Source: Oerskovia jenensis
Lineage (GTDB): Bacteria; Actinomycetota; Actinomycetes; Actinomycetales; Cellulomonadaceae
Reading direction: 5' to 3'
Assembly (NCBI RefSeq): GCF_016907235.1
Contig: NZ_JAFBBO010000001.1
Coordinates: 2,108,001 to 2,172,000, forward strand
Length of the DNA: 64,000 nt
The notes beneath the pieces are model-generated. The model ran no database searches, had not been told where the DNA came from, and saw only the letters and a list, made by a program, of their open reading frames with translations. The translations under genes were made by a program, and so were the position numbers. How positions within the stretch are numbered: position 1 is the first letter of the stretch; each line of letters opens with the position of its first letter. Below are positions 1 through 9,139 of the stretch, piece by piece.

Positions 1-1091
1 GGATCGACGTCGAGGACATACCCCGTCGCAGGAGTCAGGCTGTAGATGATGTCTTCAACAACGTGGGGCGACAGCACCGCCCCGTGTACCTGGACACCAT
101 CCGTCGCGCGGCCCAGCACCGTGATGCTCAGCTCGTTGGCCCCGCACGGGCAGTCCGCGGAGGCCACGACCTCGTCCCCCGTGTCGTACCGCAGCAGGGG
201 GCGAGAGTAGAGGTTCAGCGGGGTCACGACGAGTTTTCCCCGGGATCCGTGCTCCAAGGGCGTCAGCCCGTGGGACGTCTCCACCTCGGCATAGTTCGAT
301 GCTGCGAGCAGGTGCAGACGGTCCATCGAGCACGCCGCTGCCAGCGTTCCCGTCTCGGTGCTCCCGTAGCTGGAGTCGAAGACACGGGCGCCCCACCACG
401 CGCCGAGGCGTGCCCGCATCGCGGGCACGCTGACCTCGCCGAGAAGGTTGATCGTGCGGACCGACCCACTCAGTTCGGCAAGGAGTCCGCGCTGCTGGAG
501 CAGCCGTGTGAGCTGGAGCGCAACCCCCGGTGCCATGAATACCACCGTTGGCCGTAGCGTTCGCCACAGGCCGATCACGCGCTCCCAGTCAGAGATGCCC
601 GTGGCGAACGGATAGGCACGTGCGTGCGGTACATCCAGGTACTCGCACACCGAGGCGACCAGGTCACCGACTGGGACGATGTCGGACGGGAGCAGGCTGA
701 GTGCTCGCTCGTCCTTCGAGAGCAGTTCACGCCATGCCGACGCGACAGAGACGACGTTCCAGATCACGTCGTCGGCGAGCCTCGGTGTCGGGGTCCCCGT
801 CCCGGTCGTCCCAGTCGTCTCGTAGTACTTAGCACTTGATTCCAGACCTGTCGCAACGAAATGCCAGGGCTCTGCCCGCAGCCGCGTCTTGGCCGTGACC
901 GGCAGTTCGGTGAACGCCTGCCAGCTGTACGGGCCGAATCCCCGGTAGGCTGGTGACTCCGCCGCCCGCTCCCACAGCTTCCCCATCTTCTGGTCGTAGA
1001 AGCCGTCGGACACGGAAGAGGCGCGGATCTCGTCGTACTCGCGCTGGGCGTCGAATAGCGTGGTCAGTCGTTCGCGGGTGTTGATGAGCAT
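1..1091 (-). CDS. PaaK-type adenylate-forming enzyme (C-terminus beyond window)
   Basis: Partial gene; the reading frame is open to the window edge (about 363 codons visible). It resembles phenylacetate-CoA ligase-like AMP-binding enzymes, which activate a carboxylic acid as an acyl-adenylate. Visible motifs are the Gly/Thr-rich ATP loop YYETTGTTGTGTP near residue 100, DSSYGSTETG near 235, RYDTGDEV near 300, a CPCG cysteine pair typical of PaaK relatives, and GRATDGVQVHG before the C-terminal subdomain. The ATG at 1091 shares one base with the stop codon of the upstream ATP-grasp gene (TGATG), so translation is probably coupled. It is the last visible gene of a five-gene operon. Its substrate cannot be told from sequence. 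Confidence 0.85.
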   Translation of the reverse strand, partial: MLINTRERLTTLFDAQREYDEIRASSVSDGFYDQKMGKLWERAAESPAYRGFGPYSWQAFTELPVTAKTRLRAEPWHFVATGLESSAKYYETTGTTGTGTPTPRLADDVIWNVVSVASAWRELLSKDERALSLLPSDIVPVGDLVASVCEYLDVPHARAYPFATGISDWERVIGLWRTLRPTVVFMAPGVALQLTRLLQQRGLLAELSGSVRTINLLGEVSVPAMRARLGAWWGARVFDSSYGSTETGTLAAACSMDRLHLLAASNYAEVETSHGLTPLEHGSRGKLVVTPLNLYSRPLLRYDTGDEVVASADCPCGANELSITVLGRATDGVQVHGAVLSPHVVEDIIYSLTPATGYVLDVD

Positions 1092-2479
1092 CAGATTCTC
1101 CTCGTCTCGTCGACGGGTGCATGGAAGATGCAGCCCACGTGAGAGCCGTCTCCGAGGTACCGGATGTCCTGCTCGCGGTCGAGGACGCCCTTGACGAAGC
1201 CGCCGCTGAGGCCTGCGTCCGTGACGAAAAGGCCCCAGTGCAGGAAGCACCCCGCCGACCGGTGCTCGTTGTCCGTGGGGTCGAGAAGCGGGAAGCGCTC
1301 CGCGACGGAGGGCACACGGCGTTGCACCACGTAGCCGCCCAGCACGGCGGTGCGTACGAGTTGCGCCCACTCGTCATCTTCGGTCATCCAGCCAGCAACT
1401 ACCCCGCGTCCGGCGTGACCGATGCTCGGCTTCAGGACGAGCTCGCGGCGCTCGCGCATGACATGCTCGGCGAGCGACCCGGTCCCGTCACAAGCACGCT
1501 GGTCGGCACCGGTCATCGACCGGGTCCACGGCACAAGCCGGTCTATCACCCCGAGCTCGGCAGGAGAGAAAGCGTGCTTGTTCTCCTCGTCGCTCAGCAT
1601 CGCGAAGCAAGCCTTGGACCCAAAGAGGTCGGAGTTCAGCGGCGAGAATAGGAACACGTCACCCCGGGCCACCGCATGTGCAAGGGGGCGGAGTGCATCG
1701 GCGCTGTGCTCTCCCTCGGCCAGAGTCTTCAGCAGAAACGTCCGATACACGACATCCACGCGCACCCCCTGCAGATGGACGCCATCGGTGCGGATCTCCA
1801 GGTCCGAGAGCTTCCCTGCCACCACCGTGAACCCGAGGTCTTGCAGCAGACCGGTAAACAAGGAGGCATCGACGATGAACGGCTCGGTCAACCAGCCGAC
1901 CAGGGCCACGACCGGTGGGTCGTCAGGGTCTCGACCCGTGAGTTTCAGGAGCGTGTCGGCGAGCAGGGCCATTGGGTCGCGGTAGGTGAGCCCGAGCCGT
2001 CCGGCGGCACCTGCGAACGCTGGGTCGGCGAGCACCGCACGGCAGAGCTCACCAAACTCGAACGATCCCAGCGAACTCGACGTGTTGAACTCCACGACCT
2101 GGAAGCCGTTCGGGCTCTTCACCAGGTCGGCCCGACCGACGGGCATCGGCGGGCCCGATAGGAGTTCCAGCGCAGCCGTAGCGAGCTCCCCATCCCAACC
2201 CAGCGCCCGCGCGAACGCGGTCTCGTCGCCGTCGAAGAGCCTCTTCGGCAACTCCTGCAGAAGGCGCAGGAGCGCTGGCAGGTCCTCAGCGAGTGAGGCG
2301 GTCTCCTCAGCATCGAGCACCGCAGGTCGTCCAAGCAGCGGCCTGGTGAACCACGCCCGAAACCGGTCGTACTCCGGGCGCTGCGGGTTGAGGGTGACGT
2401 TGTCCCTGGTCAGGGCTCTCGTAGGGGCGTTCTCCGCCACTTTGGTCAGAGGACGTTCCAAGGTCCGTGCGTCGGTCAT
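1091..2479 (-). CDS. ATP-grasp ligase, circularly permuted type
   Basis: 462 aa from an ATG at 2479 that overlaps the upstream stop as ATGA. A longer in-frame reading exists but would run into the upstream gene. An early segment has VVEFNTSSSLGSFEFGE, resembling the E-x-N metal-binding strand. A middle segment reads VALVGWLTEPF and VDVVYRTFL. A C-terminal segment reads LVLKPSIGHAGRGVVAG then GYVVQRRVP, the nucleotide-binding lysine/glycine-loop pattern. This order is that of permuted ATP-grasp proteins such as glutathionylspermidine-synthase-like enzymes, which form amide bonds through acyl-phosphates. Lying between two adenylating enzymes, it probably joins an amine to an activated acid, but donor and acceptor are unknown. 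Confidence 0.75.
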   Translation of the reverse strand: MTDARTLERPLTKVAENAPTRALTRDNVTLNPQRPEYDRFRAWFTRPLLGRPAVLDAEETASLAEDLPALLRLLQELPKRLFDGDETAFARALGWDGELATAALELLSGPPMPVGRADLVKSPNGFQVVEFNTSSSLGSFEFGELCRAVLADPAFAGAAGRLGLTYRDPMALLADTLLKLTGRDPDDPPVVALVGWLTEPFIVDASLFTGLLQDLGFTVVAGKLSDLEIRTDGVHLQGVRVDVVYRTFLLKTLAEGEHSADALRPLAHAVARGDVFLFSPLNSDLFGSKACFAMLSDEENKHAFSPAELGVIDRLVPWTRSMTGADQRACDGTGSLAEHVMRERRELVLKPSIGHAGRGVVAGWMTEDDEWAQLVRTAVLGGYVVQRRVPSVAERFPLLDPTDNEHRSAGCFLHWGLFVTDAGLSGGFVKGVLDREQDIRYLGDGSHVGCIFHAPVDETRRI

Positions 2480-3651
2480 GTGAGTGCTCCGATCTTGAAG
2501 TCGAGCTCGGCGGCGTCGCGCCACAGCACGGGAAGGACCTTGTGCGTAAGGGGATGCTGCTTGAGCTCGGTGACAACCTCGACCCGAACTGCGTCGGGGG
2601 TGTGCCGATCGCAGGCCTCAAGCTCGTTCAGACCGCGTAGGAGGGCTCGCCGGACCTCAGCCGCATCCTGGGTCCCGGTACAGCGGACGAGCACGCCCTT
2701 GACGGCGGCAGAGATGTCGGCGTCGCGGAAGAGGACGACCTGCGCATCGATGATTCCCTCCACCGACCGGGTCACCGAGAGGAGATCGCTCGTACGCACT
2801 AGGCCGCCGTACAGCTTGAAGGCGTCGTCGGCACGTCCGAGCACCTGGAACGCGTCTTCGTCGCCGCACGGGCAGGTGGCGCTCCCGATGCGGTCGCCGA
2901 GCCGGAAGCGCCACGCAGGGATCGGCCACCCTTCCCCCACCCTGGTCAGGAGCGCACCTGAGTCGTCGAGCTCAAGTTGCTGTCCAGGAAGGAGGTGCTG
3001 CAGCCCCAACCCGCAGTCCGGCCTGCTTACCCCGATGACGAAGGTCTCGATTGATCCGTAGTTGCCCCATAATCCGACGCCGGGGAACGTGGCAGCCAGA
3101 GCAGCGGCGTGTCCCGCAGTGAGCGGCTCGCCCGACCACAAGGCTGACCTCACAGGCAGGCGGATCCCACTGAGCGCCACCGCCTCGGCAAACCGGGCGA
3201 GAACGTTAGGCGCACCGGCGAGCGCGGTCACACCGAGCTCGCCGATGACGTCGGCCCAAGCCGTGAGTTCCTGCGGCGCGAGCGCGCCCATGGGGACCGT
3301 ACTGGCCTTCGAGTGCAGCGCCACTGCGTTGTAAAAGTAGTGCGCGCCCCACATCCGTCCGGGCGGGAACAGGTTGAGCAGAACGTCGTTCTCACCGAGC
3401 GGCTGCCAGGCGGCAGCAACGAGTGGCACGCCGAGGTGTGGCGCGAGTGCGATGATCTTCGGGGAACCAGTGGTGCCTCCGCTCGCGACCACGAAGCTGC
3501 CGTCGACCTCGGCTCGCTGCCAGCCTGCCGTCCTGAGTTCGGCGTAGCCCCAGGGATCAGGCCGTCCACTGTCAGGAGCGCCAGGCGGCAAGTACCGGGC
3601 GGCAGCGGATCGCAACTGATCTCTGGTCAGGGTACCGATGGTGGTCGTCAC
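2476..3651 (-). CDS. PaaK-type adenylate-forming enzyme
   Basis: 391 aa, starting at a GTG at 3651 that overlaps the upstream stop as GTGA. AMP-binding family: the ATP loop SGGTTGSPK lies near residue 60, WGNYGSIETF near 195, a CPCG motif near 260, and GRADDAFKLYGG marks the hinge to the C-terminal subdomain, which ends with HPLTHKV. It is shorter than classical PaaK (about 430 aa) but complete. It is a second, divergent copy of the enzyme type encoded at 1-1091, so the operon probably activates two different acids, or one of the two transfers rather than activates. There is no adjacent carrier protein, which argues against ordinary NRPS logic. Confidence 0.85.
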   Translation of the reverse strand: MTTTIGTLTRDQLRSAAARYLPPGAPDSGRPDPWGYAELRTAGWQRAEVDGSFVVASGGTTGSPKIIALAPHLGVPLVAAAWQPLGENDVLLNLFPPGRMWGAHYFYNAVALHSKASTVPMGALAPQELTAWADVIGELGVTALAGAPNVLARFAEAVALSGIRLPVRSALWSGEPLTAGHAAALAATFPGVGLWGNYGSIETFVIGVSRPDCGLGLQHLLPGQQLELDDSGALLTRVGEGWPIPAWRFRLGDRIGSATCPCGDEDAFQVLGRADDAFKLYGGLVRTSDLLSVTRSVEGIIDAQVVLFRDADISAAVKGVLVRCTGTQDAAEVRRALLRGLNELEACDRHTPDAVRVEVVTELKQHPLTHKVLPVLWRDAAELDFKIGALT

Positions 3652-4670
3652 TCACGTACTCCTTTCACCGACGTCGCCGCCAGGATCCGTTCACGGGTGT
3701 GCTCCTCGAGACGGGTCTCGTAGGCGCGGAAACGTGCACCGACAACCCGGTCCATCACCTCGGGGTCGTCGAACAGCGCAGAGACTGCGCCATCGAGTTC
3801 TAGCTCCGAGAGGTAGAGCTCGCCCCTCGCGTTCACTAGGACGTCGATGCAGACATATGGAAGGTCGAACCGTTCATAAACCAGGGTGACCAACTCGTGC
3901 AGCGCCTGCTCCACGTGCTGCCGGGGTCGCACGGTCGCGCCCCGACTTACGTTCGCCACATGCGACGAATCACTCGGGAGCCGGTCATAGGCGGCGACGA
4001 CCTTGCCCTCGACGGCCACGATCCGGGTGTCTGCGACCACCTCTCCGACAGACGGTTGGACGAGCATGCACGCCCCGCTGCCCGAGGCGAGCCCGAGTAC
4101 AGCGTCGAGCGTCGCGCGATCGGGGCACAGCACGCAGCCGAGCCCACGACCCCATGACGCCGGCTTGGTGAACACCGGGAACCAGTCGTCCGGGACGAGC
4201 TCCTGGTAGGAGATCCGGTCGGTGTCTCTTCCCGTCGTCACCCGAACAGAGGGGATCAACGGGACTGGGGAGTTCGCGAGTTCGACCGCAGTCGCGTACT
4301 TGTCATTGAAAAGAATCGCGTCGTCGAGCCGGATCGCGGTCCAGAAACCTAGCGCCTCGAGTGACCTGACTAGGGTCATACTGGTCCACAGATCTACATC
4401 ATGAACAGGGCCACTGCGAATATCGTAAACAATGATGTCATAAGAAGGGTCAAGCAGCCCTCCTTTCCAATATGCTGAATCCGCAGACAGCACGACATGC
4501 TCGGGAACCACGACGTCAAATGCAAGCCCGCACCGCAGCGCGACATCTCTATAAGCTGGCCAGAAAGATACTTCCTCCCACAGCCGGGACTCCGAGCTGG
4601 CCCTGTCAGGAAAGAGGTAGAGAATGCGGGCAGGTCTCGCGGAGTTCGCAATTGGGGCCATTCGAATCAC
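3648..4670 (-). CDS. ATP-grasp domain protein (RimK/D-Ala-D-Ala ligase-like)
   Basis: About 340 aa. The start is taken as GTG at 4670 because it overlaps the SDR stop as GTGA; an in-frame ATG at 4661 is the alternative. The N-terminal part (ARILYLFPDRASSESRLWEE) is a Rossmann-like pre-ATP-grasp region. The ATP-grasp core shows VFTKPASWGRGLGCVL near residue 175, with the binding lysine and glycine loop. It ends with DVLVNARGELYLSELELDGA, where the usual E-x-N metal strand reads ELELDG. The protein is therefore ATP-grasp-like with a slightly atypical catalytic end. Family members ligate amino acids or peptides through acyl-phosphates. Parts of this gene are clearly richer in A/T than the flanking chromosome. 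Confidence 0.75.
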   Translation of the reverse strand: MIRMAPIANSARPARILYLFPDRASSESRLWEEVSFWPAYRDVALRCGLAFDVVVPEHVVLSADSAYWKGGLLDPSYDIIVYDIRSGPVHDVDLWTSMTLVRSLEALGFWTAIRLDDAILFNDKYATAVELANSPVPLIPSVRVTTGRDTDRISYQELVPDDWFPVFTKPASWGRGLGCVLCPDRATLDAVLGLASGSGACMLVQPSVGEVVADTRIVAVEGKVVAAYDRLPSDSSHVANVSRGATVRPRQHVEQALHELVTLVYERFDLPYVCIDVLVNARGELYLSELELDGAVSALFDDPEVMDRVVGARFRAYETRLEEHTRERILAATSVKGVRE

Positions 4671-5419
4671 CGACCCAGGAGCGCGCCGCCGTTGACGCTC
4701 AGCACCTGGCCGGTCACCCACGACGCCTCGTCCGACGCGAGGAAGGCCACGGCCCCAGCGATGTCCTCCGGGGTTCCGGCACGTCCGACGAGCGTCTGCG
4801 CCACAAGGCTCTCGTGCCGTGTCGAGCGTCCGGATTCGTCGAAGAACTCGGTATCCTGGACATAGCCGGGTGCAACGGCATTGACGGTAATACCGTGCGG
4901 CCCCCCGCGCGCCGCGAGCTCGAGGCTCCACGCAACGAGGCCAGCCTTCGCCGCACCGTAGGCACCACCACCACCGCGTTGACCTGCAATCGAACTGATG
5001 TTGACCACACGCCCGCCCGGCCGGGACAGCGAGGGCCACAGCGCCTCGGTCAACATCATCGCGGACAGGAGATTTTGCTCTAGAAGGCTGCGGAACCTGT
5101 CAAAGGTGGCCTCGAGCCCCGCGGCAGGCGGCCCGCCGACCCCACCGGCGTTGTTCACGAGGACGTCGATCTCCCGCCCGGCGAGGGCATCGACGACGCC
5201 CAGCACTCCGGCTGGATCGGTGAGATCGACGGGGATGGCATGCATGACCCCGGATGCGCTCTCCTCCACGGCGCGCGCCAGGACGTCCGGCCGACGACCG
5301 AGGATGTACGTCTCGGCTCCGTCCGCGAGGAATCGTCTGGCAATGGCACGGCCCATTCCCGTGCCGCCTCCCGTCACGACGACGATGCGCGATTCTTTCA
5401 AACTGCTTCTTGCTGACAC
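4667..5419 (-). CDS. Short-chain dehydrogenase/reductase (SDR)
   Basis: 250 aa from a GTG at 5419 preceded by a strong GGGGGGAG ribosome-binding site; longer readings upstream have no such site. It is a classical NAD(P)-dependent SDR: TGGGTGMG nucleotide loop near residue 17, NNAGG near 90, catalytic NISSIAG and YGAAK near 135-155, and a C-terminal GQVLSVNGG. It is the first gene of the five-gene operon and overlaps the ATP-grasp gene by four bases. It probably oxidises or reduces a hydroxyl/keto group of the pathway product or a precursor. Its similarity to FabG-type enzymes does not fix the substrate. Confidence 0.85.
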   Translation of the reverse strand: MSARSSLKESRIVVVTGGGTGMGRAIARRFLADGAETYILGRRPDVLARAVEESASGVMHAIPVDLTDPAGVLGVVDALAGREIDVLVNNAGGVGGPPAAGLEATFDRFRSLLEQNLLSAMMLTEALWPSLSRPGGRVVNISSIAGQRGGGGAYGAAKAGLVAWSLELAARGGPHGITVNAVAPGYVQDTEFFDESGRSTRHESLVAQTLVGRAGTPEDIAGAVAFLASDEASWVTGQVLSVNGGALLGR

Positions 5420-5973: not shown

Positions 5974-6285
5974 ATGCCCCGCCGCAGCCAGGAGTACCGC
6001 ACCCCTCGTGACTGGCTCGCGGAGGGTGATTGGCCCGAGGGCACCTTCACCGCTGACGCGCCGACCGCGGTCGCATACGCGGTGGAGATCGCGCGCCGCT
6101 TAGGGTGCAGTCTCGAAGGCCAGACCAAGACCAGCTTGGCTCGACAGGCTGGCCTCGAGCGCACCACCATCTACGACCTCCTAGCCGGACGCACCTGGCC
6201 GGACGCGGTCACATTGGCCAAGCTCGAGGAGGCGCTGGAGACTCGGCTGTGGCCCGACCACCCTGTGCCCCCGCTACGCTCCTAG
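5974..6285 (+). CDS. Small XRE-like helix-turn-helix regulator
   Basis: 103 aa. The second half has a helix-turn-helix of the Cro/C1 type: TKTSLARQAGLERTTIYDLLAGRTWPD (residues about 53-78) followed by a helix over TLAKLEEALETRLWP, as in XRE domains. The N-terminal half is rich in aromatic residues and has no assigned domain. It is transcribed away from the SDR operon and towards the integrase genes, which point at it from the other strand. Small XRE proteins of this kind often control excision or cargo of integrative elements; that role here is inferred from position only. Confidence 0.7.
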   Translation: MPRRSQEYRTPRDWLAEGDWPEGTFTADAPTAVAYAVEIARRLGCSLEGQTKTSLARQAGLERTTIYDLLAGRTWPDAVTLAKLEEALETRLWPDHPVPPLRS

Positions 6286-6420: not shown

Positions 6421-6777
6421 TCAGTTCGGCGATTGCCCCAAGTCAGGTTGTGAGCGAGGGGCAATGCCAGCGACCGGCGTAGTGACCCGTACGGTCGCCT
6501 CGCCGTCGGGCCCGAGGGGTTCGAGCACGAAGAGCACGCACCTGCCCAGGCTGATGCCGGCGGTCAGTCCATCGAGGTGGTCATAGCTGCCCCAAGCGAC
6601 AACCTCGATCGGGGTGTGGTCACGGCGCAGCCCGCGTTGCGGCGCGGAGCCCCCGATTCCGGGACGGCGCACGACGGTGGCCCGGGCGTCCGGGGGAACC
6701 CGCAGGCGGTACACCGCGCCCGAGTAGGTTGTGATGTCCCACACACCGGTCTGCTCGGGGTCGATTCGCTCGATCAC
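6421..6777 (-). CDS. Small hypothetical protein coupled to the integrase
   Basis: 118 aa. The GTG start at 6777 overlaps the integrase stop (GTGA), which is why this short reading is preferred over a longer one running into the integrase. The N-terminus (IDPEQTGVWDITTYSGAVYRLRVPPDARATVVRRPG) looks like a small beta-rich domain and ends near SLGRCVLFVLEPLGPDGEATVRVTTPVAGI. I do not recognise the family. No membrane segment or catalytic motif is visible. Being third in a recombinase/excisionase operon, it is presumably part of the mobile-element module. Confidence 0.6.
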   Translation of the reverse strand: MIERIDPEQTGVWDITTYSGAVYRLRVPPDARATVVRRPGIGGSAPQRGLRRDHTPIEVVAWGSYDHLDGLTAGISLGRCVLFVLEPLGPDGEATVRVTTPVAGIAPRSQPDLGQSPN

Positions 6778-8486
6778 GGGATCCGCCCAACCACCGCGAC
6801 GCGTTCGCTGGAGGCCCAAGCCCAAGCGTCCTCCCAGCCGGTCCAGATCCGCCTGGCGTCCGCGGAATGCGTGACGCCGGCATAGTGGTTGATCAGGATG
6901 GTGTGGTCATGCCCGGCCAGCTCGGCGACGTCGAGGAGGTTCATCCCCGACCGTAGGAGCCAGGTGATGGCCCCCTTGCGCAGCCAGTGCAGTGTCAGGT
7001 TGCGCAGTTGCGGTTCAGCCGCGTGCCCCAGGACTTCGCGTACGGCAGGACGCCAGTAAGTCTCGACGTGGTTCCCCCACCTCAGCGGTCCACCGCCTGG
7101 CCCAGTGAACAGGTGGTCACGGCTGGCGTACCCTGCGGCGAGGTGAGCGTCTAGGACCTCGGCTACGGCCCGCGGGATCGGAACTTCGCGAACCTGTCCA
7201 GGTGCCCGGCCTTTCAACGAGCCCGAGTGGGCGTAGGAGGTGCCGTCTCGGGTCCCGGCGGTGTGTGCCGGGCCAGCCGAGGTTCGAAAAACCAGCCGGG
7301 GTTCAGGGCCAGAGCGGTAGTCGTCGGGGCGCAGGGCCGCATACTCGCTCGGCCGCCCGGCCGCCACCGAGGCCAGCACCAGGGCGCGGAACCGGTCCCC
7401 GACGGCGCACCCAGTGCGCGGGTCGGTGGGGCCTTGCCGGGCGATGGCTTCGGCCAAATCAATCACGGTGCCCAACGGGACAACGTTTCGTTCGTGGATG
7501 GCCATGGGTTGGGGGCGCCGGAATCCAGCCACCGAGCGGGTGCGGCCGGCGAAATGCGGGAACGGATTGCGGCCGGGTAGCAGGCCATGGTCAGCGGCGT
7601 GGTTCAGCAGCATCTGGATGGCCTTTGCAAACAACTCCTCTGTGCGGGCTGAGACCTCGGACTCGACCGGCAACAGCTCGAGTGTGTCGGCAGGCCGGGC
7701 GGGGAGACGCCCCCCGCGCCGAATGCCTGCCGCCCGGGCCCGCTGGGCATCGTCGTACCTGGTCCAGGACTGGTGCCAGGCCAGCTGGCGCTGGACGTTG
7801 AGCAGGTCTGCGCGCCGGTTGGAGTACCGGCGCAGCGAGATCGCCTCCGTGAGGTCCGGCGGCAGGATGAGTGCCACGTGCAGCGACCCGCCCTCCATCA
7901 CCCCATCCAGCTCGAGCCGCGCCCGCTTCCAGGCAACCACCTCGGGGGTGTCGTTCAGGTTCGGCTCACGGTATACCATCACGTGCTCCACGAAGGCCAA
8001 GACATTGCGCATGTTGACGTTGTGCGCGGGGCTCCACCCCGGGGCCCGCTCCGCCACCACCATCCGGATCACGTCGGCGATCGTTGCCCCCAACGGGTAC
8101 TCGCCCGCCGCGATCCTGCCGAGTAGGGCGTTGTGCGGCCCAACCACGCCCAGTGGATCGGAGTCGGAGTGTGCGGCATGGACCGGCTTAGGCAGGGCGG
8201 GCCTGGCGGAGGTCGGCGCAGTGGGTACCGGGCTACCATCCGCTGCGACGGTCCAGGACCCAGGATTGGCGCTGGCGGCGACGAGAGTGCGCAGCAGGGG
8301 TGCCAGGGCGGCGTCAGCGGCCCAGAGCGTACGGGATCGCGGGTTCTTGCCACCTGGTGCGCGCCAGCGGACCCGGACCTTGCCCGCGACAGGCAGATCG
8401 GCGAAGCCCCAGTCTGCGGGCACCGACCACGAGGTGGTGCCCTTCGACGTGGTGACCGTGACCCAGGGGCCGCTCCAGTCACTCAT
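6774..8486 (-). CDS. Tyrosine recombinase / site-specific integrase
   Basis: 570 aa, longer than typical phage integrases because of an extended N-terminal region. The C-terminal catalytic domain shows the expected residues: Arg in GRPSEYAALR (about residue 378), H-x-x-R in LHWLRKGA (about 499-502), the following histidine in LAGHDHT (about 525) and the tyrosine in INHYAGVT (about 533). It would catalyse integration and excision through a covalent 3'-phosphotyrosine intermediate. The gene lies just beyond the 3' end of tRNA-Arg(ACG) and overlaps its neighbours on both sides by four bases, forming an excisionase-integrase-partner operon. A tRNA 3' end is a common attachment site for such enzymes. 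Confidence 0.9.
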   Translation of the reverse strand: MSDWSGPWVTVTTSKGTTSWSVPADWGFADLPVAGKVRVRWRAPGGKNPRSRTLWAADAALAPLLRTLVAASANPGSWTVAADGSPVPTAPTSARPALPKPVHAAHSDSDPLGVVGPHNALLGRIAAGEYPLGATIADVIRMVVAERAPGWSPAHNVNMRNVLAFVEHVMVYREPNLNDTPEVVAWKRARLELDGVMEGGSLHVALILPPDLTEAISLRRYSNRRADLLNVQRQLAWHQSWTRYDDAQRARAAGIRRGGRLPARPADTLELLPVESEVSARTEELFAKAIQMLLNHAADHGLLPGRNPFPHFAGRTRSVAGFRRPQPMAIHERNVVPLGTVIDLAEAIARQGPTDPRTGCAVGDRFRALVLASVAAGRPSEYAALRPDDYRSGPEPRLVFRTSAGPAHTAGTRDGTSYAHSGSLKGRAPGQVREVPIPRAVAEVLDAHLAAGYASRDHLFTGPGGGPLRWGNHVETYWRPAVREVLGHAAEPQLRNLTLHWLRKGAITWLLRSGMNLLDVAELAGHDHTILINHYAGVTHSADARRIWTGWEDAWAWASSERVAVVGRIP

Positions 8487-8821: not shown

Positions 8822-9066
8822 GCGAAGGATCGGTCCGGCGACGGGGCGATCGTGCAATGCCCGCACGTCGGGCGTCCACCGGCGCCGCATCGGCCGGGGG
8901 TGAGACGGCGGGCGGGCCGGTGAGCAAGCCCTCGCATGATCCCCGTGCGACGGCGTCGGAGCCGTGTCTGGGCGTGTCAGGCCGGTGCGTCGCCGTGTCG
9001 GAGCAGAAAGGGTGCCCCAACACGGGAAGGCCAGGAACCGTGACGGTTCCTGGCCTTCGCGTACTG
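8822..9066. other. Junction region between tRNA-Arg and the integrase operon
   Basis: About 245 bp without a credible gene. It should contain the promoter of the excisionase-integrase operon, the terminator hairpin at 9027-9057, and the island boundary if the attachment core lies in the tRNA 3' end. The partner attachment site is not in this window, so the core cannot be defined here. Confidence 0.5.
9027..9057 (-). terminator. Hairpin downstream of tRNA-Arg
   Basis: A perfect 14-bp inverted repeat (arms 9027-9040 and 9044-9057, loop of three bases) lies just past the tRNA 3' end. There is no clear U-tract, as is common for high-GC actinobacterial hairpins. Confidence 0.7.
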
Positions 9067-9139
9067 TGCGCCCGGAGGGATTCGAACCCCCAACCTTCTG
9101 ATCCGTAGTCAGATGCTCTATCCGTTGAGCTACGGGCGC
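9067..9139 (-). tRNA. tRNA-Arg (anticodon ACG)
   Basis: 73-nt cloverleaf read on the minus strand: acceptor GCGCCCG pairs with CGGGCGC, discriminator A, anticodon loop CTACGGA with ACG at 34-36, and GGTTCGAATCC T-arm. No CCA is encoded. Its 3' end faces the integrase, making it the probable attachment site of the island on the left. Confidence 0.95.

Follow-up and report, generated by a model that had tools for sequence, protein, structure and literature searches.

The DNA considered here, referred to as the window, is a stretch of 64,000 nucleotides of the Oerskovia jenensis genome (contig NZ_JAFBBO010000001.1, positions 2,108,001 to 2,172,000 of the forward strand; 4.45 Mb in one contig), and its left edge cuts through an operon of 12 minus-strand genes, labeled A to L. 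This operon is a real, conserved, and mobile biosynthetic unit, larger than the five genes first noted in an initial annotation of the window. With moderate confidence, we read it as a specialized-metabolite operon on a mobile island, in which tyrosine would be converted to p-coumarate, loaded onto a carrier, reworked there, and joined to amino acids as amides. The interest of the locus lies partly elsewhere than in the ligases emphasized at first: the ATP-grasp ligases B and D are its variable part, and a cassette located off the window, made of a toroid protein, a tautomerase, and an acyl carrier protein (ACP), is its constant part.

Extent and Layout of the Operon

The initial annotation described five minus-strand genes, with overlaps of one or four bases, starting from window position 5419, and both the coordinates and the junction letters within the window (GTGA, GTGA, ATGA, and TGATG) are confirmed. 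It also held that the operon continues to the left. The left flank was retrieved (stretch L003, whose coordinates equal the window position plus 12000) and contains seven further genes, F to L, together with the rest of E. The full operon runs from L003:17419 to 3375, for a total of 14,045 bp, with 5,419 bp within the window and 8.6 kb beyond its left edge.

All genes are on the minus strand. The first is A (window 4667–5419), a short-chain dehydrogenase/reductase (SDR) oxidoreductase of 250 aa (PF13561, 7.1e-47), followed by B (3648–4670), a RimK-like ATP-grasp ligase of 340 aa (PF08443, 9.3e-9, above cut-off), C (2476–3651), a short AMP-forming ligase of 391 aa (PF00501, 2.2e-11, above cut-off), and D (1091–2479), 462 aa, which a fold model places among the ATP-grasp ligases of the circularly permuted, glutathione-synthetase type. 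Gene E, cut by the window edge (window 1091 to −216, the latter being L003:11784), encodes a PaaK/BagE-like adenylating enzyme of 435 aa (NF041217). Beyond it are F (L003:11787–10072), a double alpha/alpha toroid of 571 aa (PF00432), G (L003:10059–9352), a Pro-1 tautomerase-ACP fusion of 235 aa (PF00550, weak PF14832), and H (L003:9355–8303), a short AMP ligase of 350 aa whose best NCBIfam match is 4-coumarate-CoA ligase. The operon is completed by I (L003:8306–7008), an exporter of the major facilitator superfamily (MFS), J (L003:6957–5572), an ATP-grasp enzyme with weak features of L-amino-acid ligases, K (L003:5602–4883), a hydrolase of metallo-beta-lactamase fold with an HGHLDH motif, and L (L003:4886–3375), an aromatic amino acid ammonia-lyase of 503 aa (PF00221). 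Overall, it encodes three ATP-grasp enzymes (B, D, and J) and three adenylating ligases (C, E, and H), and the usual motifs of both enzyme types, which the initial annotation had assigned within the window, are present.

With the chosen starts, a 4-base overlap occurs at seven of the 11 junctions (A/B, B/C, C/D, E/F, G/H, H/I, and K/L); D/E overlap by 1 base and J/K by 31, while F/G are 12 bases apart and I/J are 50 apart. The initial view of a single operon devoted to a biosynthetic pathway is supported. Scanning for promoters and terminators was uninformative, with no promoter returned and terminators at chance level.

Distribution of the Conserved Cassette

Related loci were searched for with the toroid F as the tag. 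Matches were found in two of 221 family genomes at 1e-10, in nine of 343 genomes of the Streptomyces-like genus g8 at 1e-20 (six full cassettes, one truncated, and two half-matches without the cassette), and, at 1e-30, in two (CG5 itself included) of the 297 genomes from the family that Rhizobium sp. CG5 belongs to, and in two of 394 genomes of the class, namely the own genome and a half-match. Within the genus of the own genome, the search gave no toroid in the remaining six genomes. A scan of genome contigs by two short peptide patterns added four loci, three from Streptomyces and one from Rhizobium, and three of 72,556 plasmid records matched, all from R. rhizogenes, including pAtK84c of A. 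radiobacter K84. Seventeen loci were counted in this way (L003, L028/29, L037–L040, L050–L059, and L085), 12 actinobacterial and 5 alphaproteobacterial; L040 and G883 are one genome, counted once, and the named Streptomyces may overlap other genomes. The toroid half-matches in G731 (E ∼1e-33) and G673 (∼1e-32) were excluded, as no match to E, G, or H occurs in the 20 kb surrounding them. Locus L030 (G171, genus g8) was not counted either, having homologues only of D, the MFS gene, and, weakly, an ATP-grasp gene; there, the distant D homologue (33%) stands beside the MFS gene, the weak ATP-grasp match, and an open reading frame that by eye resembles a type I polyketide synthase, which makes it a further cluster with this type of ATP-grasp enzyme.

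The cassette E-F-G1-G2-H is kept in the same order and on the same strand in 15 of the 17 loci, in actinobacteria and rhizobia. Regarding the exceptions, F is truncated in L059 (G836), which gives no match to E and whose lyase matches as two overlapping pieces, and in L052 an IS256 transposase gene separates G2 from an H that is shortened. Across the remaining 15 loci, E, F, and H co-vary in pairwise identity (Mantel r 0.98–0.99, 0 of 2000 permutations each), part of which is expected from shared species history. All 12 genes have homologues in one cluster from another genus, with 46–58% identity (40% for the tautomerase half of G).

Among the five window genes, A, C, and E belong to the more widely shared set, and B and D are found in three loci only (L003, L028/29, and L055). 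A homologue of C is detected at 1e-5 in 7 of 17 loci; the match of C to the 350-aa ligase of L037 and L039 is no better than ∼3e-4. An ATP-grasp enzyme of the J or DdaF-like type is found in 8 of 17. The remaining D homologues were left aside, apart from a screen of wider stretches around four of them (L031–L034), which contain D homologues and, in L033, also weak matches to E and to an SDR. Within the fetched stretches, the lyase L occurs in all actinobacterial loci except L053 (11 of 12), and a class I or II 3-deoxy-D-arabino-heptulosonate 7-phosphate (DAHP) synthase in all except L003 and L055 (10 of 12).

Some versions of the locus carry additional genes. In G315, a regulator of the Streptomyces antibiotic regulatory protein (SARP)/AfsR type, with BTAD, NB-ARC, and TPR domains, is divergent from the orthologous cluster (L029:1432–4569). 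The Streptomyces-type loci L037, L038, L039, L057, and L058 add genes for a member of the aldehyde dehydrogenase family, an AMP ligase of 350 aa, and a barrel protein similar to allene oxide cyclase that also weakly resembles dirigent proteins. The families were scanned in L038, and homologues occur in all five loci; the predicted functions look as if the acid were reduced and coupled in these versions. The plasmids of K84 and of R. rhizogenes C5.7 and Colt5.8 (L050–L052) bear the cassette with genes for a DdaF-like ATP-grasp enzyme, a GNAT protein, an amidase, an MFS protein, and a LysR regulator. In K84, it occupies L050:6586–19319, corresponding to 368,851–381,584 of pAtK84c (CP000631.1), and the literature search returned no product tied to it. 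Agrocin 434 was considered as its product, given that a K84 plasmid bears the cassette, and rejected, since the 23.6 kb retrieved from that plasmid have no annotated nucleoside genes and no link was found in the literature.

The Ammonia-Lyase

Gene L was found by a PF00221 search of the genome, where it is the sole match (1.4e-104, above cut-off). The ASG triad that forms the 4-methylideneimidazole-5-one (MIO) group is present in all 11 loci with the gene, as is a His-Leu selectivity pair like that of 2o6y; the histidine lyase 1gkm has Ser-His instead. We take the His-Leu pair to be a marker of tyrosine selectivity, and 2o6y, although its title in the PDB is “putative histidine ammonia-lyase”, to be the Rhodobacter tyrosine ammonia-lyase (TAL). 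A profile of four lyases (L003, L028, L055, and L054) searched against the PDB gave 296 bits for 2o6y, at most 260 for histidine lyases, and 231 for a tyrosine aminomutase. L is an aromatic ammonia-lyase by family, with tyrosine as its probable substrate; two features favor tyrosine, the four-sequence profile and the His-Leu pair. The lyase of L038, the one Streptomyces lyase scanned, has as its best match the BagA/FevV-like model (2.1e-203, below the model cut-off).

L could instead be an aminomutase, in which case the carrier would receive beta-tyrosine, to be capped there by the ATP-grasp ligases. L does match the tyrosine 2,3-aminomutase model TIGR03832 at 4.9e-59, below cut-off, and beta-amino acids would suit amide ligases; however, the lyase profile favors 2o6y over the aminomutase 2qve by 65 bits, H resembles 4-coumarate ligases, and the L038 cassette has the BagA/FevV-like lyase just mentioned, and we regard an aminomutase as unlikely.

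Enzymes of the Cassette

Both ligases of the cassette carry adenylation motifs. E has NF041217 (BagE/FevW) as its best NCBIfam match (2.8e-27, reaching 96 of the 800 cut-off bits), with PF00501 below its own cut-off, and the P-loop and YGSTE motifs are found in 14 of 14 sequences among the matches listed; the patterns for later motifs were loose and missed some sequences, and gaps there were not interpreted. H matches the 4-coumarate-CoA ligase model at 9.5e-25 and retains the GSTE motif in 15 of 15 sequences and the P-loop pattern in 14 of 15.

The carrier half of G matches PF00550 at 4.1e-6, above cut-off, and its DSL serine motif, the predicted phosphopantetheine site, is kept in 8 of 8 sequences among the matches listed and in L003 as well. 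The tautomerase half has a weak family match (PF14832, 4.2e-4, below cut-off), and a Pro directly follows the presumed start in 15 of 15 sequences, where the tautomerase superfamily has its catalytic proline; the invariant positions in 11 sequences are M, P, T3, T24, G52, A69, V71, R79, and R84. Tautomerase and ACP are fused in L003 and are separate genes in others, such as L028, L037, and L050.

Protein F matches PF00432 at 2.9e-27, and its AlphaFold model (pLDDT 86.6) has a toroid fold, with the best hit (E 4.1e-9) to the beta subunit of a Rab-type prenyltransferase. In the beta subunit of protein prenyltransferases, the zinc ligands are a D-x-C pair plus a His. Across 16 sequences of F, 114 residues are invariant; the DXDD acid motif occurs in none of the 16, the D-x-C motif is missing from 10 of 16, and the 114 invariant residues include no D-x-C pair. 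F was thus rejected as a terpene cyclase or prenyltransferase, both motif tests having failed. That F might nonetheless be a genuine terpene cyclase or prenyl-binding enzyme, giving a meroterpenoid, is suggested by the PF00432 match and by the fold search, which ranks protein prenyltransferase beta subunits and squalene-hopene cyclase first. We find this quite unlikely in view of the two motifs, the poor full-length match to squalene-hopene cyclase (TMq 0.47, rmsd 10.6), and the fact that the own operon, the only locus scanned for such enzymes, encodes neither a prenyltransferase nor a prenyl-diphosphate synthase in its 12 genes.

The tail of F (L003:10072–10110) consists of a poorly conserved linker followed by six or seven strongly kept residues, LPxLxL(S). 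In 14 of 16 sequences, LPxLxL either forms the C-terminus itself or is followed by a single further residue; L056 has LPALTI and L085 has APALAL. This C-terminal stretch is perhaps a docking tail.

The ATP-Grasp Ligases and Their Partners

Homologues of the SDR A occur in G315 and G807, with 58% and 56% identity, respectively. As for C, the initial annotation had counted two PaaK-type enzymes: this stands for the PaaK/BagE-like E, while C belongs to the short AMP-binding enzymes of generic type and matches amino-acid adenylation domains (2.3e-7) better than PaaK (0.0044), neither match reaching its cut-off. A homologue of C is fused to one of A in A. radiobacter K84 (Arad_12482), and L085 has a contiguous E-F-G1-G2-H-C-A-ATP-grasp-amidase set; the fusion and the contiguous set together suggest that C and A work together.

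In B, residues K169, D276, and E289 are kept, and a Glu (E291) stands in 3 of 3 sequences at the position of the metal-binding Asn of RimK, which makes the predicted metal site of B unusual.

The only Pfam match of D is PF14403 (6.4e-5, 22.5 bits against a cut-off of 32), and D was therefore not accepted as a curated CP_ATPgrasp_2 member. In a fold search with its AlphaFold model, of moderate confidence (pLDDT 65), the top hit is glutathione synthetase and the sixth is glutathionylspermidine synthase, with a best E of 3.9e-12 and a TM of ∼0.54, and no PDB chain matched a profile of D at E 0.01. Residues D118, E130, N132, K289, and K350 are invariant in the four aligned sequences, and we assume that D...E-x-N is the ATP-grasp metal site. 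The proposal that the second ATP-grasp enzyme is of the circularly permuted kind is supported by this fold match, and we accept D as a putative circularly permuted, glutathione-synthetase-type ATP-grasp enzyme on its modeled fold.

Proposed Pathway and Alternative Readings

From the observed gene content, homology, motifs, linkage, and island, we infer all substrates and the order of the steps as follows. L would deaminate L-tyrosine to p-coumarate, which H would adenylate and load on the carrier domain of G. The tautomerase half of G, the toroid F, and probably the SDR A would then rework the tethered enoyl chain; we would guess that the beta-carbon undergoes a conjugate (Michael-type) addition, followed by a redox or ring-forming step in the toroid. 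E, whose gene overlaps F and which resembles bagremycin synthetase, would condense the acyl group with a nucleophile by adenylation, and C together with the ATP-grasp enzymes J, B, and D would attach amino acids as amides. Lastly, K may release or trim the product, and I may export it. An aromatic amino acid is favored as the starting point because of the DAHP synthase present in 10 of the 12 actinobacterial loci.

Several results count against this route. Searched alone against the PDB, the L003 lyase scores higher with the histidine lyase 1gkm (181.6 bits) than with 2o6y (164.1) or the aminomutase (149.6), and in NCBIfam it matches models for histidine lyases best (301 bits with a cut-off of 524, and 282 with a cut-off of 539), none reaching cut-off. 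H scores 87 bits for the 4-coumarate-CoA ligase model, whose cut-off is 335, and the tautomerase half of G matches cis-3-chloroacrylic acid dehalogenase (cis-CaaD) structures only at E ∼1. Moreover, the own island has no DAHP synthase, and the lyase is absent from the fetched stretches of all five alphaproteobacterial loci and from the K84 plasmid, so that p-coumarate either is not the substrate of every version or is supplied from elsewhere.

The first of these results would fit an L that acts on histidine, forming urocanate, or on another amino acid, so that the tethered acid would not be p-coumarate and the remaining scheme would hold; the single-sequence PDB search and NCBIfam both rank histidine ammonia-lyase first. 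The His-Leu pair in place of the Ser-His of 1gkm, the preference of the four-sequence profile for 2o6y, and the frequency of DAHP synthase, which suggests an aromatic amino acid, all speak against it, and we hold histidine or another amino acid to be distinctly unlikely. It is highly improbable that the operon tailors a protein or ribosomal peptide in a RimK- or graspetide-like manner: B is RimK-like and, according to the accessible part of one source (PMC13097080), ATP-grasp enzymes occur in graspetide pathways, but the carrier, the aryl-acid-type ligase, the ammonia-lyase, the MFS exporter, and the DAHP synthase of related loci suggest a small molecule, and 14 of the 17 loci lack B and D, no search for a precursor peptide having been made. 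Finally, the initial proposal of a pathway without carrier proteins, in which free acids and amines would be joined solely by the two adenylating and two ATP-grasp enzymes, is scarcely credible, since, although such pairs exist (DdaG/DdaF, CysC/CysD, and Cp1D/Cp1B, in the portion of PMC12568646 available), the carrier domain of G (L003:9352–10059), 1.9 kb off the window edge and present in related loci, contradicts it for the whole operon, even if the late steps that form amides could still proceed in this way.

We advance one further idea tentatively, as a possibility we rate below the preferred route from tyrosine: the cassette may be a new carrier-bound assembly unit, in which a toroid devoid of terpene machinery would cyclize or condense an ACP-held hydroxycinnamoyl or other enoyl chain after conjugate addition by the tautomerase, leading to an undescribed product class of actinobacteria and rhizobia, including K84. 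No counterpart of the toroid/tautomerase/ACP arrangement, and no coumaroyl-ACP, coumaroyl-S-ACP, coumaroyl acyl carrier protein, or cinnamoyl-ACP, was found in the literature searched, which mostly excluded subscription papers, so that the negative is weak evidence of novelty. If the reading is right, the operon represents a pathway that is both conserved and mobile and has two enzyme roles that this literature did not yield, namely those of a toroid and of a tautomerase that act on acids bound to a carrier, and its three ATP-grasp and three adenylating ligases would make a useful amide-forming set. A toroid gene adjoining those of a PaaK ligase and an ACP offers a handle for genome mining, and the plasmid of the crown-gall biocontrol strain K84 bears an apparently unstudied metabolite locus.

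The Genomic Island

The operon is, as judged from its boundaries, on an integrative genomic island and horizontally acquired. An exact direct repeat of 54 bp occurs to the left at L003:2004–2057 (window −9996 to −9943) and to the right at window 9064–9117, where it bounds the island and coincides with the 3' part of a minus-strand tRNA-Arg(ACG) gene (9066–9139), the integration target. The resulting repeat unit of 19,060 bp contains the operon, an XRE-type helix-turn-helix protein divergent from it (5974–6285, plus strand; PF01381, 4.1e-7), and a tyrosine-recombinase integrase of 570 aa (6774–8486, minus strand; PF00589, 5.5e-7).

The junction is uninterrupted in three of six congeners (L073, L074, and L076), with the left flank running straight into the tRNA and the right flank. 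The 46 bases left of the left repeat are identical at 46, 43, and 46 positions, respectively, compared with 27–28 of 46 when the bases on the island side of the right repeat are used instead; the result rests on these 46 left-flank bases, as the flanks differ further left. In the other three congeners (G297, G298, and G301), the same contig bears further copies of the tRNA end at distances of ∼8, 11, and up to 57 kb, and because the tRNA end itself is repeated in these three, tRNA-Arg(ACG) looks like an integration hot spot.

Comparison with Known Systems

In the bag/fev clusters of Streptomyces (bagremycin/ferroverdin), a DAHP synthase, a PaaK-type synthetase, and a TAL are neighbors (available part of PMC6692506), which provides a precedent for the supply genes and for a condensing ligase of the PaaK type. 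The related loci bring together the same three predicted functions, DAHP synthase, tyrosine ammonia-lyase, and PaaK-type condensing ligase. The best NCBIfam match is BagE/FevW for E and BagA for the L038 lyase, both below cut-off. The available part of PMC6692506 mentions no carrier protein, toroid, tautomerase, or ATP-grasp enzyme for bag/fev and, conversely, the 12 genes of our operon include neither genes for 3-amino-4-hydroxybenzoic acid (3,4-AHBA) nor a UbiD/UbiX (p-coumarate) decarboxylase.

The initial annotation could not match its combination of enzymes to a described pathway. This holds for the full gene set, which was not found in the literature searched, whereas the dapdiamide, cystargolide, and E-64 pathways are precedents in which an adenylating amide synthetase is paired with an ATP-grasp ligase (PMC12568646, in the portion available). 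Our cluster likewise has a stand-alone adenylating ligase and an ATP-grasp ligase, as with DdaG/DdaF of dapdiamide and CysC/CysD of cystargolide. The K84 ATP-grasp enzyme has PRK07206 as its top match (3.2e-97, above cut-off), followed by DdaF (NF041595, 3.3e-56, far below cut-off with 191 of 840 bits). The ammonia-lyase, the toroid, and the tautomerase are extra in our operon with respect to dapdiamide. Dapdiamide is built from fumarate and 2,3-diaminopropionate, and the lyase and DAHP synthase of our loci suggest aromatic acids instead. With regard to E-64, of fungal origin, the model of D matches the ATP-grasp enzyme Cp1B (9cjn, TM 0.54), which acts beside the amide bond synthetase Cp1D; this likeness does not extend to sequence, given the profile search above, and our 12 genes include none that would form epoxysuccinate.

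Finally, F shares the alpha-alpha toroid fold and the repeat family with squalene-hopene cyclase and the protein prenyltransferases, and differs from them by having, instead of DXDD or an invariant D-x-C, its own set of 114 invariant residues and a conserved C-terminal tail.

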